Below, one piece after another: positions 22,229 through 29,046 of a stretch of 64,000 nt of DNA. Where the stretch lies: the NCBI GenBank assembly GCA_016787785.1, contig JAEUTO010000010.1:1-64000 (forward strand), written 5' to 3'. Each line of letters starts with the position of its first letter. Position 1 is the first letter of the stretch. The notes under the pieces were generated by a model. That model saw nothing but the letters and a program-made list of their open reading frames with translations, did no database searches and was not told where the DNA came from. The position numbers and the translations under genes are program-made. Origin of the DNA: Bacteroidia bacterium. GTDB taxonomy: Bacteria; Bacteroidota; Bacteroidia; B-17B0; Aurantibacillaceae.

Positions 22229-23095
22229 TTATTGTCCTAAATATTGTTGTAATAATTTGCTACGGCTGCTATGACGTAAACGACGGATAGCTTTTTCTTT
22301 GATCTGGCGAACACGTTCGCGGGTAAGATCAAATTTATCGCCAATTTCTTCTAAGGTTAAACCGTGGTTTAAACCAATTCCGAAAAATAATTTTACTACA
22401 TCGCGCTCTCTTTCAGTTAAAGTGCTCAAAGCACGGTCAATTTCTTTGCTTAACGATTCGTTCATTAAACCTGTATCGGCTTTTGGCGAATCTAAGTTTA
22501 CCAATACATCCAATAAGCTACTTTCTTCACCATTGGCAAACGGCGCATCCATGCTCACATGACGGCCCGAAACTTTCATGGTATCAGAAACCTTATCAAT
22601 TGGCAGATCTAAAACATCAGCTAATTCTTCAGCACTTGGCTCACGCTCAAATTCCTGTTCTAATTTGCTATATGCCTTATTAATTTTATTTAATGAACCT
22701 ACTTGATTTAACGGCAAACGTACGATACGACTTTGTTCTGCTAAAGCCTGTAATATACTTTGACGGATCCACCAAACGGCGTAAGAGATAAATTTAAAAC
22801 CACGGGTCTCATCAAAACGACGAGCCGCTTTTATCAAACCTAAGTTTCCTTCGTTAATAAGATCGGGTAAACTTAAACCTTGATTTTGGTATTGTTTTGC
22901 CACCGAAACCACGAAACGTAAGTTAGCACGGGTTAACTTCTCAAGAGCACTTTGATCACCGTCCTTAATTTTCTTAGCTAAAATTACTTCTTCTTCAGCT
23001 GTGATCAATTCTTCACGACCAATTTCTTGTAAGTATTTATCTAAGGATGCACTTTCACGATTTGTGATGGACTTGGTAATTTTAAGTTGTCTCAT
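22229..23095 (-). CDS. rpoD: Primary RNA polymerase sigma factor, short Bacteroidota form
   Basis: 288 residues, much shorter than the E. coli protein because regions 1.1 and the long non-conserved insert are absent. Region 1.2 opens at about 15 ([10 protein letters not shown]), region 2 contains [20 protein letters not shown] and [10 protein letters not shown], region 3 spans about 130-200, and region 4 carries [14 protein letters not shown] and [21 protein letters not shown]. These are the hallmarks of the principal sigma factor of the phylum, which reads the TTTG / TAnnTTTG promoters found in this window. The gene is monocistronic, with a terminator behind it and a 452-nt gene-free gap in front. 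Confidence 0.95.
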
Positions 23096-23547
23096 GGGTT
23101 TGTGTTGGAATTAAGAGGATAAAGTTATATAAAAAACAGCAATATTTAAAGTATTTATACCTGTATAACGCATTAAAAAGCAAAAAGTTTCTCTTTTTTG
23201 TTAAAAAACTGACAAATTTTCTTAATTCTGCTTTAAGAAGTAAATCTAATCAGCCTTGCTTGTAAATTAATTGTGAGCAGGTTAGACGTCCACTCACAAA
23301 ATTATTTTTAAACTTTTTGTTTAAAACGCAAACATTTTAACGCCATATTTTTAGCAATATTCGGGCTAAATAGAATTGAAAAGTCTTGTAAGCCAATAAA
23401 ATCGGGCATTTCAAAGATCACGTAATTAACAATCGACTCTTAATAACGCGGAGGGTAATTAACATTATTGTGTTTAATCATAATGGCGCCGTAGGGTTTT
23501 ATGCCTCTATTAGTTATCTATTTTTATAAAAATCAAAACACGAATTA
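23096..23547. other. 452-nt gene-free interval between rpoD and the coiled-coil gene
   Basis: Divergent promoter region for rpoD and the coiled-coil gene. No clear TAnnTTTG element could be placed. One inverted repeat is visible: TTGTGAG (23271-23277) and CTCACAA (23293-23299) around a 15-nt loop, followed by T-rich sequence, which could end a small RNA. No open frame on either strand is convincing. Confidence 0.5.
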
Positions 23548-25872
23548 ATGAACGCAGAAAGTTTAAAAACCGAATTACAGCAAGTTTTAGAAAACGATTT
23601 AGTATTGCGCAAGGAATTTAATGAGCTAAAACGCTCGTTAAGCGACTACCGCAACCAGCTAATAATGCGCGATGAAGACTGCAAGCGCCTGCAGGTAACC
23701 ATTGATGTTTTAAACACCAAACTGGTTGTGATGGAACGCGACAACACCAATTACAAAGGTGAATTAGCCTCGTTCAAAGAATTGCGCGGCTCAATAAAAG
23801 AACAATTACACGCAAAGCAAGAAGAGATAGAGCAACGTTTAGCCGAAATAGAAAGTTTAAAATCTGATCTTAACACCATTTCTGCCGACTACGAATTAAA
23901 AATTGAAGGTATTAAAGCTGAAGCAGCAACAAATTTAGAATCAGTTAAACAGGAATACAGAACTCAAATTGAAGAACTTCGCTCTAACTCATATTACAAA
24001 GAAGCTGGTATTAAAGAAGAATTTGAGAACCGTGTAAATGAATTAACCGCAAACTTAGCTGACAAAGAACAATCGTTAGCACTTAATCACCAGGAAGAAA
24101 TTTCTAATATTAAGTTATCTTACGAACAGCAAATTACTTTTTTAAAGAATGATTATAACTCGCAGATATCTAACTTAACTTCAACCAGTCAAAGCGATAT
24201 CAATGCGTTGAAGATCTCGAGCCAACATGCTATCGAAACTTTAGAAACTAGTTATACGCAAAAAATTGAGAGTTTAGAATTCTCTTATAAAACAGAAATT
24301 TCAGGATTAAAATTAGAGTTAGAAGAACAACGCAATACTTTAACTCACGATTTTACTTCTAAATTAGAAACTGCAACTTCCGAATTTGCTACTAAAGAAG
24401 CCGATCTTATTGCATCTTACGAAAAACAAATTGAAGAACTGAAGTTAACTACCAATTCTTCTTCTGAAGAGTTATCTGCTTCTTTCCAAAATCAAATTAA
24501 TACATTAAAATCTGAGCACGAAACCTTTGTAAGTGAATTAACACGTTCACATACATCGCAAATTCAAGAGATCACCAGTGGTTACGAAGATAAATTATCT
24601 AACGCATTAATTCACTCAAACGGCCAAAACACAAGACTTAGCGAGGAATTAACAAAAGTACAGTTAGAGAACGATCAGGCTAAAGAAAAAATAAAAGAGC
24701 TGGTAATACATATAGATTCTCAAAATTCAGAATTCGAAAATTTAACAGGGCAATTAAACAACTACCAGTACCAGTTAAAAACCGAAGCTGAGAAATTTTT
24801 AGCGTTAACCAACGAGTTTGATGCTTTTAAACAAACCTCATCTTTATCAAACAGCGAGCAGGTTACAGAGCTTACTACGCAAATTGAGAATTTAAATACA
24901 GAGTTAAGTAACTTAACCGCTGTAGTGGAGACTACTAATAATACATTAGGTGAAACAGAGGTTTCTTTAGAATTAAAAACATCTGAATTAGAAAACGCTT
25001 CGCAACAAATTGAAAGTTTAAATGAGCAAATTGCTACTTTAGTGAATGCCATTGCTAATAAAGAAAAAGAATTAGAAAATGTTAGAGCTGAAATTGAAGA
25101 AGCCGTTAAACAACAATTCTTAGATAAAGAAATTGAATTCCAAAAATTATTGGTTGAGAATACAAGCCTTATAGTTGAAATAGATGCTGCACAAGATAAA
25201 GTTGAAGCACAGGAAGCTGAGCTTACTTTAATAAAAGCAGAATTAGAGGAAATAAGAACTATTAGTGCTGCAAAAACGGAAGAATTTAACGAAATTTTAT
25301 CGGTTAAGAATTTTAATGCTACTAACTTAGAAGGCCAAAATGCTGCTTTATCTGAAGAGATCTCACATTTAAAATCTGAAGTTGCTCAATTACAAGCCGG
25401 GTTTGACCAATTGAATTCTGAAAAATTGGATCTTTTAACACAATTAACCGGATTGCAATCTTGTATCTCTGATCTCAATTCCACAGTTTCTACCTTAAAC
25501 GAAAAGATCGCAGGTTACGAAACCGAGATCGCTACTTTATCAGCAGCCACAAGCACTACAGTGACTGAAGAGCAGGACGCCTATGTAGACAGGCTGTTTA
25601 AGCAGATCGATGCCCTGAATGACGAGCGCTTAGTGCTTTTAGACGAAAAAGAGCAAATGGCAACTCAGTTGTTAAAAATGAATGATGTTATAGGCGAACT
25701 ATCTCAAAACATTGATAGTCAGAGTATTGATGTAACAGACTTGAATAATCACAGAAAGAATATTATCTTAGCCAATAATTCAGGTGGGAAGAGTGAAAAG
25801 TCTCAAATGAAAAAACAAATAAACGATTTGGTGCGTGAAATTGATAAGTGCATTACGTTATTAAGTGCTTAA
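23548..25872 (+). CDS. Large coiled-coil protein upstream of zapA
   Basis: 774 residues, almost all predicted coiled coil: heptads rich in E, K, S, N and L from residue 1, no signal peptide, no membrane segment. A middle part (about 170-300) is built of repeated units such as SYEQQI, SYTQKIESLE and SYKTEISGL of about 20-25 residues. The last 40 residues (KKQINDLVREIDKCITLLSA) are non-coiled and resemble, as I recall, the C-terminus of a much shorter coiled-coil protein found upstream of zapA in Bacteroidota. It ends 20 nt before zapA, so a cell-division role with ZapA is likely but inferred. The family is not one I can name. Confidence 0.75.
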   Translation: MNAESLKTELQQVLENDLVLRKEFNELKRSLSDYRNQLIMRDEDCKRLQVTIDVLNTKLVVMERDNTNYKGELASFKELRGSIKEQLHAKQEEIEQRLAEIESLKSDLNTISADYELKIEGIKAEAATNLESVKQEYRTQIEELRSNSYYKEAGIKEEFENRVNELTANLADKEQSLALNHQEEISNIKLSYEQQITFLKNDYNSQISNLTSTSQSDINALKISSQHAIETLETSYTQKIESLEFSYKTEISGLKLELEEQRNTLTHDFTSKLETATSEFATKEADLIASYEKQIEELKLTTNSSSEELSASFQNQINTLKSEHETFVSELTRSHTSQIQEITSGYEDKLSNALIHSNGQNTRLSEELTKVQLENDQAKEKIKELVIHIDSQNSEFENLTGQLNNYQYQLKTEAEKFLALTNEFDAFKQTSSLSNSEQVTELTTQIENLNTELSNLTAVVETTNNTLGETEVSLELKTSELENASQQIESLNEQIATLVNAIANKEKELENVRAEIEEAVKQQFLDKEIEFQKLLVENTSLIVEIDAAQDKVEAQEAELTLIKAELEEIRTISAAKTEEFNEILSVKNFNATNLEGQNAALSEEISHLKSEVAQLQAGFDQLNSEKLDLLTQLTGLQSCISDLNSTVSTLNEKIAGYETEIATLSAATSTTVTEEQDAYVDRLFKQIDALNDERLVLLDEKEQMATQLLKMNDVIGELSQNIDSQSIDVTDLNNHRKNIILANNSGGKSEKSQMKKQINDLVREIDKCITLLSA

Positions 25873-25892
25873 TTTTTAACGTCCCTCTTTAA

Positions 25893-26201
25893 ATGAGTGA
25901 AGTAAACATAAAAGTTGAAATTGCCGGAAGTGTTTTTCCCTTAAAGGTAAACGCTGATGACGAAGTAAACATTAAAGAGGCCGTTAAACTAATAAATACA
26001 AAAATTGCAGAGTTTGAAAAAAACTACGCAGTTAAAGATAGAAAAGATGTGTTGACCATGGTGATGTTACAATTAGTAGCAGAACTCTACAAAAAGGCCA
26101 ACACTGCAGAGGGAGAATTAAGTCATTTAAAACAACTATTTTCAAGTGTGGAGGATATGTTAAAACAACATATGCAAGACATTAAAAATATTAACGAATA
26201 G
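25893..26201 (+). CDS. zapA: Cell division protein ZapA
   Basis: 102 residues. The N-terminal half is the ZapA globular fold (VNIKVEIAGSVFPLKVNADDE) and the C-terminal half is the helix (VMLQLVAELYKKANTAEGELSHLK) by which ZapA dimers cross-link FtsZ filaments at the Z-ring. It follows the large coiled-coil gene by 20 nt and precedes rny, with a strong terminator between. Confidence 0.9.
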   Translation: MSEVNIKVEIAGSVFPLKVNADDEVNIKEAVKLINTKIAEFEKNYAVKDRKDVLTMVMLQLVAELYKKANTAEGELSHLKQLFSSVEDMLKQHMQDIKNINE

Positions 26202-26226
26202 GTAAACTACGGTTTACAAACTTACA

Positions 26227-26269
26227 CGCACAAAATTTGAGATACGTCTTAAATTTTTGTGCGTTTTTT
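26227..26269 (+). terminator. Strong terminator after zapA
   Basis: A stem of about 16 bp (CGCACAAAATTTGAGA against TCTTAAATTTTTGTGCG, one bulge, one wobble) is capped by a TACG tetraloop of the stable UNCG class and followed by six T. It separates the coiled-coil-zapA unit from rny. Confidence 0.85.
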
Positions 26270-26303
26270 ATTTTTATGAATGTGTAATTAAAACGAAGGA
26301 AAG

Positions 26304-27854
26304 ATGGATATATTAACAATTGGATTTATAGCAGGGGCCCTGATTCTTGGAATTGTGGCAGGATTTATACTGGCGGGCAGCAAAATAAATGCCAGTGCCA
26401 AAAAAGAAAAAGAGAACTTAATTAAGGAAGCCGAAGTAAAGGCAGAATCTATAAAACAGGAAAAGATCTTACAGGCCAAAGAAAAATTCTTACAATTAAA
26501 GTCAGAGCACGATAAATCTATTCAGGAAAAGAACGCCCATATTTTGCAAACCGAAAATAAGGTAAAACAAAAAGAAGGCGAGATAAATAAAAAGATAGAA
26601 GAGCTTAACCGCAAAGATAAAGAAGCCGAAACGTTAAAGAACCAGGCGCAACAACAAATAGATCTTTACAAACACCGTTTGGATGAGGTTGAAAAAGGTC
26701 ACCGCAAACAGGTAGAGATGTTGGAGAAGATAAGCGGGCTAAAAGCCGATGACGCCAAGTTACAATTGGTAGAATCTATTAAGGCCGAAGCAAAAACACA
26801 ATCCATGTCTTATGTAAAAGATATTATGGATGAGGCAAAATTAACTGCCAATAAAGAAGCGAAGAAAATTGTACTGCAAACCATACAGCGTGTGGCTACG
26901 GAAACAGCTATAGAAAATTCCATCTCTGTTTTTCATATTGAAGGTGACGAAACAAAAGGACGCATCATTGGTCGTGAAGGCCGTAACATCCGTGCATTGG
27001 AGGCTGCTACAGGCGTTGAGATCATAGTAGATGATACACCGGATGCAATTACTTTATCGTGTTTTGATTCTATAAGAAGAGAAATTTGCCGTTTAGCACT
27101 TCACCAATTAGTAACGGATGGACGTATTCACCCGGCGCGTATTGAAGAAGTAGTTGAGAAAACGAAGAAAATGCTGGAAGAAGAAATTATCGAAACTGGT
27201 AAACGTACTTGCATCGATCTTGGTATTCACGGTTTACATCCGGAGTTAATTCGTATGGTTGGCCGTATGAAATACCGTTCATCTTACGGACAAAATTTAT
27301 TACAACATAGCCGCGAGGTTGCTAACCTTTGCGCTACCATGGCTTCTGAAATGGGCTTAAACCCTAAGGTTGCCAAGCGTGCAGGTTTATTACACGATAT
27401 TGGAAAAGTACCTGATAGCGAACCGGAATTACCACATGCTTTATTAGGTATGAAGCTGGCCGAACAGTACAAAGAAAAACCGGAAGTATGTAATGCTATT
27501 GGTGCCCATCACGATGAAATTGAAATGAATACGTTATATGCACCCATCATTCAGGTGTGTGATGCTATCAGCGGTGCCCGTCCGGGTGCTCGTCGTGAGA
27601 TCGCAGAACAATACATGAAGCGTTTAAAAGATCTTGAAGCATTAGCTTTAAGTTATGATGGTGTAGAAAAAACGTATGCAATACAAGCAGGACGTGAAGT
27701 GCGTGTAATTGTATCCAGCGATAAAGTAACAGATGGCAGAGCAGAAGAATTAGCATTTGAAATTTCGCAACGCATTCAAACAGAAATGACCTATCCGGGA
27801 CAAGTAAAAGTTACGGTTATCCGCGAAACCCGCGCAACAGGTTACGCGAAATAA
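26304..27854 (+). CDS. rny: Ribonuclease Y
   Basis: 516 residues, the usual family length. Membrane anchor at about 5-25 ([19 protein letters not shown]), coiled coil about 30-190, KH domain about 205-270 ([20 protein letters not shown]) and HD phosphohydrolase domain with His in HSREVANL and the His-Asp pair in LLHDIGKV. RNase Y starts mRNA decay by endonucleolytic cleavage at the inner face of the membrane. It has its own upstream terminator and a repeat-containing terminator behind, so it is transcribed alone. Confidence 0.95.
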
Positions 27855-28146: not shown

Positions 28147-29046
28147 ATGCTAAATTCAAAATCAATCGGCAATAAAATTGCCACAGCCAGAAAGAAAACT
28201 AATCTTTCACAAGCAGAGCTTGCCCAGCAAGTATCTATAAGTTCTCAAGCGGTCGGTAAATGGGAGCGTGGCGAGTCCGTGCCCGACATCATGACATTAA
28301 ACCGGCTTGCAGAAATTTTTGGAGTTGACCTTAACTATTTCTCTGAGAGTTTTAAGGTCAACGAAATGAACACCAACAGTAATTTTGACAAACAAAGTAT
28401 AGAAAATCCAGACACTTTATCAAAAAAGAAATTTGATTGGAACTGGGATATGTCAAAAGGCAACTGGGCAGATGCTGACTTCTCCGGTCTTAAGAATTTG
28501 AAAGAAAAGTTCAGTTCTTCAAATATGAAGAACTGCAAGTTTATGAACTCAGACCTATCGGGACTTGTACTTGGAAATAATAATATTGAGGTCTGTGATT
28601 TTTCATCTTCCGATCTGCGAGACAGTAAAATTCAATCCTCGAATTTATTAAATAATCAATTTAATAAGTGTTCTTTTATTGACGCTGAATTTTTGAAAAA
28701 TAATATTGAAAAATGTGATTTCTCTAACGCCAACCTTTCAGGCGCAGAGTTTTCAGGAGTAAATTTCGAGAATAATATCATAAAAGAAGTTACATGGAAA
28801 TTTACATCCTTTAAAAGAACAAATTTAAGTAACGTTGTTTTTGAAGGACTCCTGGAAGATTGTCATTTTGAACATTGTTCATTCTATAACGTTAAATTTG
28901 AAGGTGCAACAATTTTAAATACTTTTTTTAAGTACAACGAAAAATTTAAACGGGTTCAGTTTATCGATTGCAAAGTGGATAAGATCACCTACGCCTTTTT
29001 AAAGAATAACCAGGCAAATTTAACCGGAATTACAGTATTAGAGTGA
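28147..29046 (+). CDS. XRE-family HTH regulator fused to pentapeptide repeats
   Basis: 299 residues. An HTH of the Cro/C1 (XRE) class covers about 8-62 (NLSQAELAQQVSISSQAVGKWERGE). From about 105 to 285 the protein is made of pentapeptide-like repeats (SSDLRDSKIQSSNLLNNQF, CDFSNANLSGAEF), which should fold as a right-handed beta-helix. So a DNA-binding head is joined to a rigid helical arm; such an arm can mimic DNA or form a dimer platform. No ligand domain is present. The gene has a clear promoter and lies between two copies of a repeated terminator. Function unknown; a repressor with an unusual oligomer domain is my guess. Confidence 0.8.
   Translation: MLNSKSIGNKIATARKKTNLSQAELAQQVSISSQAVGKWERGESVPDIMTLNRLAEIFGVDLNYFSESFKVNEMNTNSNFDKQSIENPDTLSKKKFDWNWDMSKGNWADADFSGLKNLKEKFSSSNMKNCKFMNSDLSGLVLGNNNIEVCDFSSSDLRDSKIQSSNLLNNQFNKCSFIDAEFLKNNIEKCDFSNANLSGAEFSGVNFENNIIKEVTWKFTSFKRTNLSNVVFEGLLEDCHFEHCSFYNVKFEGATILNTFFKYNEKFKRVQFIDCKVDKITYAFLKNNQANLTGITVLE

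Follow-up and report, generated by a model that had tools for sequence, protein, structure and literature searches.

In E. coli, the 81-aa coiled-coil protein ZapB (Pfam PF06005) acts on the Z-ring through ZapA. It is described as a ZapA partner at this site (PMC4388696), and ZapA itself as a tetramer (PMC12754632). In Caulobacter, ZauP is a ZapA partner at the Z-ring that has been called a functional homologue of ZapB (PMC7188993). Streptococcus pneumoniae has ZapJ, a lineage-specific partner of ZapA other than ZapB with a mass of ~24 kDa; the part of that report cited here places its gene upstream of murC and not adjoining zapA (PMC8687745). FilP and Scy of Actinobacteria are rods that grew by addition of 11-residue units, their heptads being "gradually expanded by hendecads" in the cited part of PMC9858780. 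Coiled-coil spacers are treated in PMC5082667 and PMC4350178, in the cited parts of which the terms 'indel' and 'hendecad' are absent. Among the matches listed from the open-licence PMC literature, there was no description of a ZapA partner in Bacteroidota or of an experiment on a member of the family presented here.

We analyzed a stretch of DNA of 64,000 nucleotides from a Bacteroidia bacterium (the window) that contains a gene for a long coiled-coil rod protein just upstream of zapA. By analogy, this protein resembles ZapB as a coiled coil that would act on the Z-ring through ZapA. The ZapB model gave no match to the full long protein (E 0.001) or to its C-terminal 100 aa (E 0.1), and one match among three short relatives (19.2 bits, cut-off 31.5). 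The likeness to ZauP is one of functional description, and ZauP is proteobacterial, unlike the Bacteroidia rod. Compared with FilP and Scy, the rod has no DivIVA match (Pfam, full protein at E 0.001 and aa 1-100 at E 0.1), its core is aromatic rather than alanine-rich, and its gene is linked to zapA. The protein is a candidate member of the functional class of ZapB, ZauP and ZapJ, as gene linkage and joint loss indirectly suggest. The order-specific rod, with a predicted reach of ~100 nm and a length that nearly always changes by whole structural repeats, suggests a division-ring scaffold or tether.

Organization of the rod gene locus

The rod gene is located at 23548..25872 on the + strand, stop codon included, and is delimited by its open reading frame and by comparison with close relatives. 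The predicted protein is 774 aa long and contains no proline and no tryptophan. Against three close relatives, dN/dS for the whole gene was 0.032, 0.036 and 0.075, indicating that the gene is real and that purifying selection on it is strong. The zapA gene (25893..26201, + strand) encodes a protein of 102 aa that matches Pfam PF05164 (ZapA) with 56.3 bits (cut-off 23.8, E 4.1e-15). It starts 20 nt after the stop codon of the rod gene, the distance given in an earlier note on this DNA. That note had also assigned one terminator to both genes, and a terminator-like hairpin with arms ACGCAC...GTGCGT followed by a T-run is indeed present 3' of zapA (26226..26275, + strand; folding energy of the region -24.3 kcal/mol, z -4.8 against shuffles). 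On the + strand between 22900 and 26500, scanning for consensus terminators gave no hits, so this hairpin too was missed. The rod gene and zapA are flanked downstream by the hairpin and then by rny, predicted to encode RNase Y (26304..27854, + strand; Pfam RNase_Y_N), a neighbor conserved in the same order in relatives. Upstream of the rod gene and divergent from it is a sigma-70 gene (22229-23095). TAnnTTTG, a promoter motif of the Bacteroidota type, does not occur at 23101-23560 on the + strand. The single Rfam match in the window is a tRNA far from the rod locus. The rod gene and zapA may be co-transcribed.

Scanning named genomes, we found 63 rod loci, all in MAGs labeled mostly as Bacteroidetes, Bacteroidota, Bacteroidia or Sphingobacteriaceae bacterium, with a few under genus names, among them Chitinophaga and Sediminibacterium; UBA2475 (DDPF01000018.1, 98%) is the nearest. 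Leaving out five partial loci (L085, L095, L117, L122 and L128), zapA begins 13-25 nt after the rod-gene stop in 58/58 complete named relatives. The order rod-zapA-rny holds at every rod locus that reaches rny, except in genus g19.

Homology of the C-terminus to a short zapA-linked protein

ZapA was found in 38 of 41 genomes searched, and the region upstream was read in all 38. At all 14 zapA loci from other Bacteroidia families, this region has an open reading frame of 89-104 aa, which bears out the coiled coil of about 100 residues that the earlier note had placed here in relatives. The window's genus contributed 24 loci, the window included; 22 of these encode 564-885 aa after start correction, and L036 and L040, which are cut by contig ends, were dropped from the alignments of this genus. 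The short proteins were aligned as 13 of the 14, with L057 left out because it has no C-terminal motif.

A similar C-terminus in the short relatives had been anticipated, and the preset comparison detected it. The last 100 residues of the 22 rods aligned with the 13 short proteins at an hhalign probability of 98.5% (E 2.4e-15, 88 columns). Six other 100-residue slices of the rod gave 0.6-16.4%, but for slice 601-700, part of which lies within the C-terminal piece, the value was 80.9%. Coil similarity inflates profile scores, and a share of the signal has to be put down to it. We delimit this homologous C-terminal domain as aa 675-774 (25570..25869, + strand). It contains a LVREIDKCITLL motif at aa 761-772 (25828..25863, + strand), which the alignments and its loss in the zapA-less genus g19 mark as the probable ZapA dock.

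The long protein and the short one share their place upstream of zapA, the C-terminal ~100 residues and a INELVREIDKCIALL motif, which alignment A2 locates in the C-terminal domain of the long protein. Like the short genes, the window gene immediately precedes zapA and has the same orientation. By contrast, the short protein is ~97 aa long and has neither head nor hendecad rod; the long form is 415-910 aa, and the window protein falls outside the ~90-105 aa range of the short family. Neither the window protein nor three short members matched a Pfam or NCBIfam family above its cut-off. The short protein is predicted to fold as one helix (pLDDT 88.1) that does not reproduce the helix breaks predicted, with low confidence, in the C-terminus of the long protein, and we base no structural conclusion on these breaks. 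Searched against solved structures, the C-terminal profile gave 34 matches at E <= 0.1, with designed or generic coiled coils first (best E 6.5e-6, protein origami).

Distribution of the long and short forms

The C-terminal profile A2 matched 81/87 genomes of the order, all 87 belonging to one family. Five of these matches need care: those in G009, G019, G057 and G081 begin a contig and seem to be truncated, and that in G059 is a chance match to a different gene (L145). In the remaining 76 genomes the open frames are 335-911 aa, and the long form (415-910 aa) is present in all nine genera of the order where zapA was found. Across the class, A2 matched 254/296 Bacteroidia genomes sampled. Among the 150 class-wide matches with places listed, 13 are in the family (434-889 aa) and 137 outside it (92-182 aa); no long form outside the order was seen among these 137, drawn from 241 matching genomes outside the family. 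These matches suggest that a candidate ZapA partner is common in Bacteroidia, a class of the major phylum Bacteroidota, and that one order carries a giant rod version of it. The head profile A3 matched 4/119 genomes at E 1e-5, all from the window's genus; 20 of the 115 negatives were listed and all are from other families. Because A3 represents the window's genus alone, diverged heads of basal genera may have escaped it.

ZapA was present in all partner-positive genomes tested outside the family (36/36, of 241), and in the 23 with both places listed the short partner and zapA are adjacent and on the same strand. It was also present in 11 of 20 partner-negative Bacteroidia genomes tested (of 42) and was not found in the other nine, so ZapA does not need a recognizable partner. 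The 11 are G104, G113, G150, G157, G182, G204, G205, G220, G222, G230 and G040, the last of which (locus L057) has an 89-aa open reading frame without the motif upstream of zapA.

Architecture of the rod

Conservation is highest in the N-terminal head (aa 1-90; 23548..23817, + strand), with 88% mean column identity among 22 relatives and no amino acid changes against three close relatives, and lowest in the middle of the protein. The head profile matched nothing among solved structures better than E 0.012.

The earlier note had described internal repeats of 20-25 residues. Repeats are present, and their length is better described as 11 residues: the hydrophobic residues recur with a period of 3.5 in the head, of 3.67 at aa ~121-390, the mark of hendecads, and mostly of 3.51-3.59 beyond. 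The power at 3.67 residues in the window protein is 16.2, compared with a maximum of 9.1 in 1000 shuffles. Among 31 hendecad-type proteins tested the peak is 10.5-25.5, and in nine from genera g25, g20 and g22 it is 2.3-5.1. The core of the hendecad zone, whose length is quantized according to anchor distances, spans aa 150-345 (23995..24582, + strand). The three core positions are occupied by I/L, L and Y/F/H, and alanine makes up 0-3% at each of them in 57 proteins. According to the cited part of PMC9858780, a hendecad coil escapes clashes either through small residues in its core, chiefly alanine, or through assembly into a higher oligomer; by this rule the bulky core hints at more than a dimer. 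No DNA tandem repeats were found in the coil, which would make the protein repeats old.

AlphaFold2 predicts helices at 3-430, 441-450, 458-665, 677-722, 730-742 and 753-773, with low overall confidence (mean pLDDT 70.8, pTM 0.21) and a further low stretch at 169-185. A break in the rod is predicted at aa 431-457 (24838..24918, + strand), where the only helix is the short one at 441-450 and pLDDT is below 50 from 426 to 466. It is followed by a rod of heptad type at aa 458-665 (24919..25542, + strand), assigned from periodicity and AlphaFold2, in which length shifts are more often than not multiples of 7. At a coiled-coil rise of 0.15 nm per residue, the main predicted helices sum to ~110 nm.

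Length changes and the origin of the rod

We compared rod lengths in a pool of 63 distinct proteins with anchors placed by profile HMMs, counting identical proteins once because many of the named loci come from genomes that also carry a G handle. The pool leaves out the early-branching genera (L131-L140), the chance match L145 and two g19 proteins, and the head-to-mid distance was unusable in two of the 63. In the remaining 61 proteins, the window's included, the distance from head to mid-rod takes 15 lengths between 154 and 436 residues. It agrees with the window modulo 11 in 59/61, the exceptions being L141 (off by 2) and L149, and from the anchor at 150 to the mid anchor all 57 proteins fit modulo 11 over 12 distances. 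Modulo 7, the head-to-mid distances are spread over all seven classes. Beyond the mid anchor there is a weaker modulo-7 rule, followed by 48/61 and 43/63 proteins in two variable zones and by 30/61 over the entire stretch between the mid anchor and the C-terminal domain. In pairwise alignments of at least 70% identity, gaps in the hendecad zone are 11, 22, 44 and 132 residues long, and gaps elsewhere 1, 4, 7, 8, 18, 25, 29 and 33 residues. L141 (G075, genus g24) is the one full-length rod clearly out of the 11-residue step.

On an RNase Y tree, the head-to-mid lengths require 25 changes over 55 labeled tips, with the two exceptions included. Of the 67 tips, the other 12 carry no length: L131-L140 were left unlabeled on purpose, and in L112 and L115 the mid anchor scored too low. 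Such register-keeping indels fit a working coiled coil. As far as can be judged from sequence, the rod is continuous and used and its exact length is free. Total length among hendecad-bearing proteins is 540-910 aa, a drift that indicates no requirement for exact spacing.

Proteins of g25, g20 and g22 are 415-561 aa long and have no hendecad zone, and by eye their tail looks closer to the short protein. The protein of g18 is 665 aa long with a weak 3.67 signal (8.6). These four genera are outside the hendecad-bearing clade of the RNase Y tree when it is rooted, by our choice, on g25. With that root, lengthening would have come first and hendecad expansion later, and the origin of the rod may run parallel to the hendecad expansion of FilP and Scy.

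A genus without zapA

We found ZapA in none of the four g19 genomes, which are 96, 89, 85 and 78% complete; absence in the latter two says little. FtsZ was found in three of the four and rny in two. In both genomes with rny, a coiled-coil gene lies just upstream of it (727 aa in G059, 672 aa in G058) with gaps of 268 and 254 nt, respectively, which are too short for zapA. A search of these two loci with 36 ZapA queries gave nothing better than E 0.14. The tails keep NLDAHRKSTIFA (G059) and NLDADRKNTIFA (G058), the counterpart of LNNHRKNIILA. In both intact loci other residues stand in place of LVREIDKCIALL, and the head lacks its beginning as well. The g19 rods match the family profiles with E 4.4e-25 and 5.9e-19 and a bias larger than the score, so that homology here rests mainly on gene place and the kept part of the tail. 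The pair is 53% identical (349/660), with pN 0.295 compared with pS 0.63, indicating that the rods are still constrained. The tree places g19 inside the hendecad clade with weak support. Two loci from one genus count as one event.

Loss of LVREIDKCIALL where zapA was not found and the rod is kept indicates that the tail tracks ZapA and that the rod can persist alone, and it supports the LVREIDKCIALL motif as the putative ZapA dock. The g19 rod may have a ZapA-independent use or may be in slow decay. Together with the quantized lengths, this genus provides natural variants for asking what sets the distance from ring to cell interior. In zapA's place, overlapping the end of the rod gene, both loci have an open reading frame of 64-66 aa with an MKNS start and a hydrophobic N-terminus (L163:4531-4725, L164:4681-4881) that may be due to chance.

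Proposed function of the rod protein

We propose, with a probability of roughly 0.7, that the protein is an elongated ZapA partner, docked on ZapA by its C-terminus and bearing a conserved head on a long rod of ~100 nm reach. Binding to ZapA and location at the Z-ring, like the oligomeric state and the partner of the head, are what we infer. The last ~100 residues correspond to the old coiled-coil protein that is linked to zapA in Bacteroidia, and their most likely role is to dock on ZapA, itself located on FtsZ filaments. Ahead of these residues, the lineage-specific rod consists of heptads, ~20 hendecads and again heptads, with two predicted breaks, and ends in the very conserved head of ~90 residues. 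Given the ~110 nm helix sum, one molecule could span from the Z-ring to the deep cytoplasm or connect ZapA-coated filaments that lie far apart. A second partner, or the head of another rod, is probably what the head binds, and the ring would so be held together over distance. The Z-ring scaffold imagined in the earlier note draws support from the C-terminal homology, from the adjacency to zapA and from the motif loss in g19. The persistence of the g19 rod without zapA counts against it, and the protein may do more than scaffold the Z-ring.

A narrower version, possible and on the whole unlikely in our judgment, is a single-molecule linkage of the Ter type with the C-terminus on ZapA and the head on a nucleoid or terminus protein, so that one ~110 nm molecule does the work of the E. 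coli ZapA-ZapB-MatP layers. The E. coli layers are spaced such that ZapB is ~40 nm interior to FtsZ/ZapA and MatP another ~30 nm inward (PMC4388696), a distance that the rod could span, and ZauP and ZapT have been proposed to act alike in Caulobacter (PMC7188993). That the head is the most conserved part of the protein also fits. We looked for MinC_C in eight family genomes, among them that of the window, and found it in none, so the ring does not seem to be placed by MinC. Against the Ter-type linkage, the head contains no known DNA-binding domain (three Pfam matches to aa 1-100 at E 0.1, all below cut-off, best E 0.013), and the length of the rod is not fixed. With these E. coli distances, a nucleoid tether is the boldest reading. 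Taken furthest, it would make the protein a new class of Z-ring linker, a ~110 nm molecule with its C-terminus on ZapA-decorated FtsZ and its head on a second structure, perhaps the nucleoid. Its reach would evolve by whole 11-residue units, it would stand in for ZapA-ZapB-MatP layering, and in one genus the connection to the ring would have been severed, with zapA and the docking motif both lost. We offer this as speculation and think it rather doubtful.

The protein could instead assemble by itself into a cytoskeletal filament in the manner of FilP, Scy or crescentin, with its tail only loosely tied to ZapA. In favor of such a filament former are the many hendecads of the rod, a trait it has in common with FilP and Scy (PMC9858780), a weak Pfam Filament match (23.1 bits) and the persistence of the rod gene in g19. 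However, no DivIVA-like domain was found, the core is I-L-aromatic with at most 3% alanine compared with the alanine-rich cores of FilP and Scy (PMC9858780), and zapA follows the rod gene in every complete named relative. We weigh self-assembly as a serious alternative that is probably wrong. Neutral elongation, in which the C-terminal dock alone is of importance and drift has lengthened the coil, would account for the wide variation in length and the low conservation of the middle. It is improbable given dN/dS of 0.01-0.09 in rod segments, a register kept through 25 length changes, a nearly invariant head and a long form in all nine genera of the order where zapA was found. An SMC- or Rad50-like protein, suggested by a weak NCBIfam SMC match, is virtually impossible, as that match reaches 55.3 bits against a cut-off of 567 with its best stretch (479-739) in the coil, and no two glycines lie five apart, so there is no P-loop and no P-loop ATPase head. 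The intermediate-filament match was also rejected, being confined to the coil and below its cut-off (23.1 vs 40 bits).

Other features were seen in the window. Against L068 and L069, dS is 0.13-0.29 in the head, the C-terminal domain and zapA, compared with 0.43-0.59 in the rod; these lower-dS stretches (23548-23817 and 25618-26201) could reflect codon constraint or short-sequence noise. Downstream of rny, an open reading frame of 299 aa (28147-29046) has an HTH-like start followed, by eye, by pentapeptide-like repeats.
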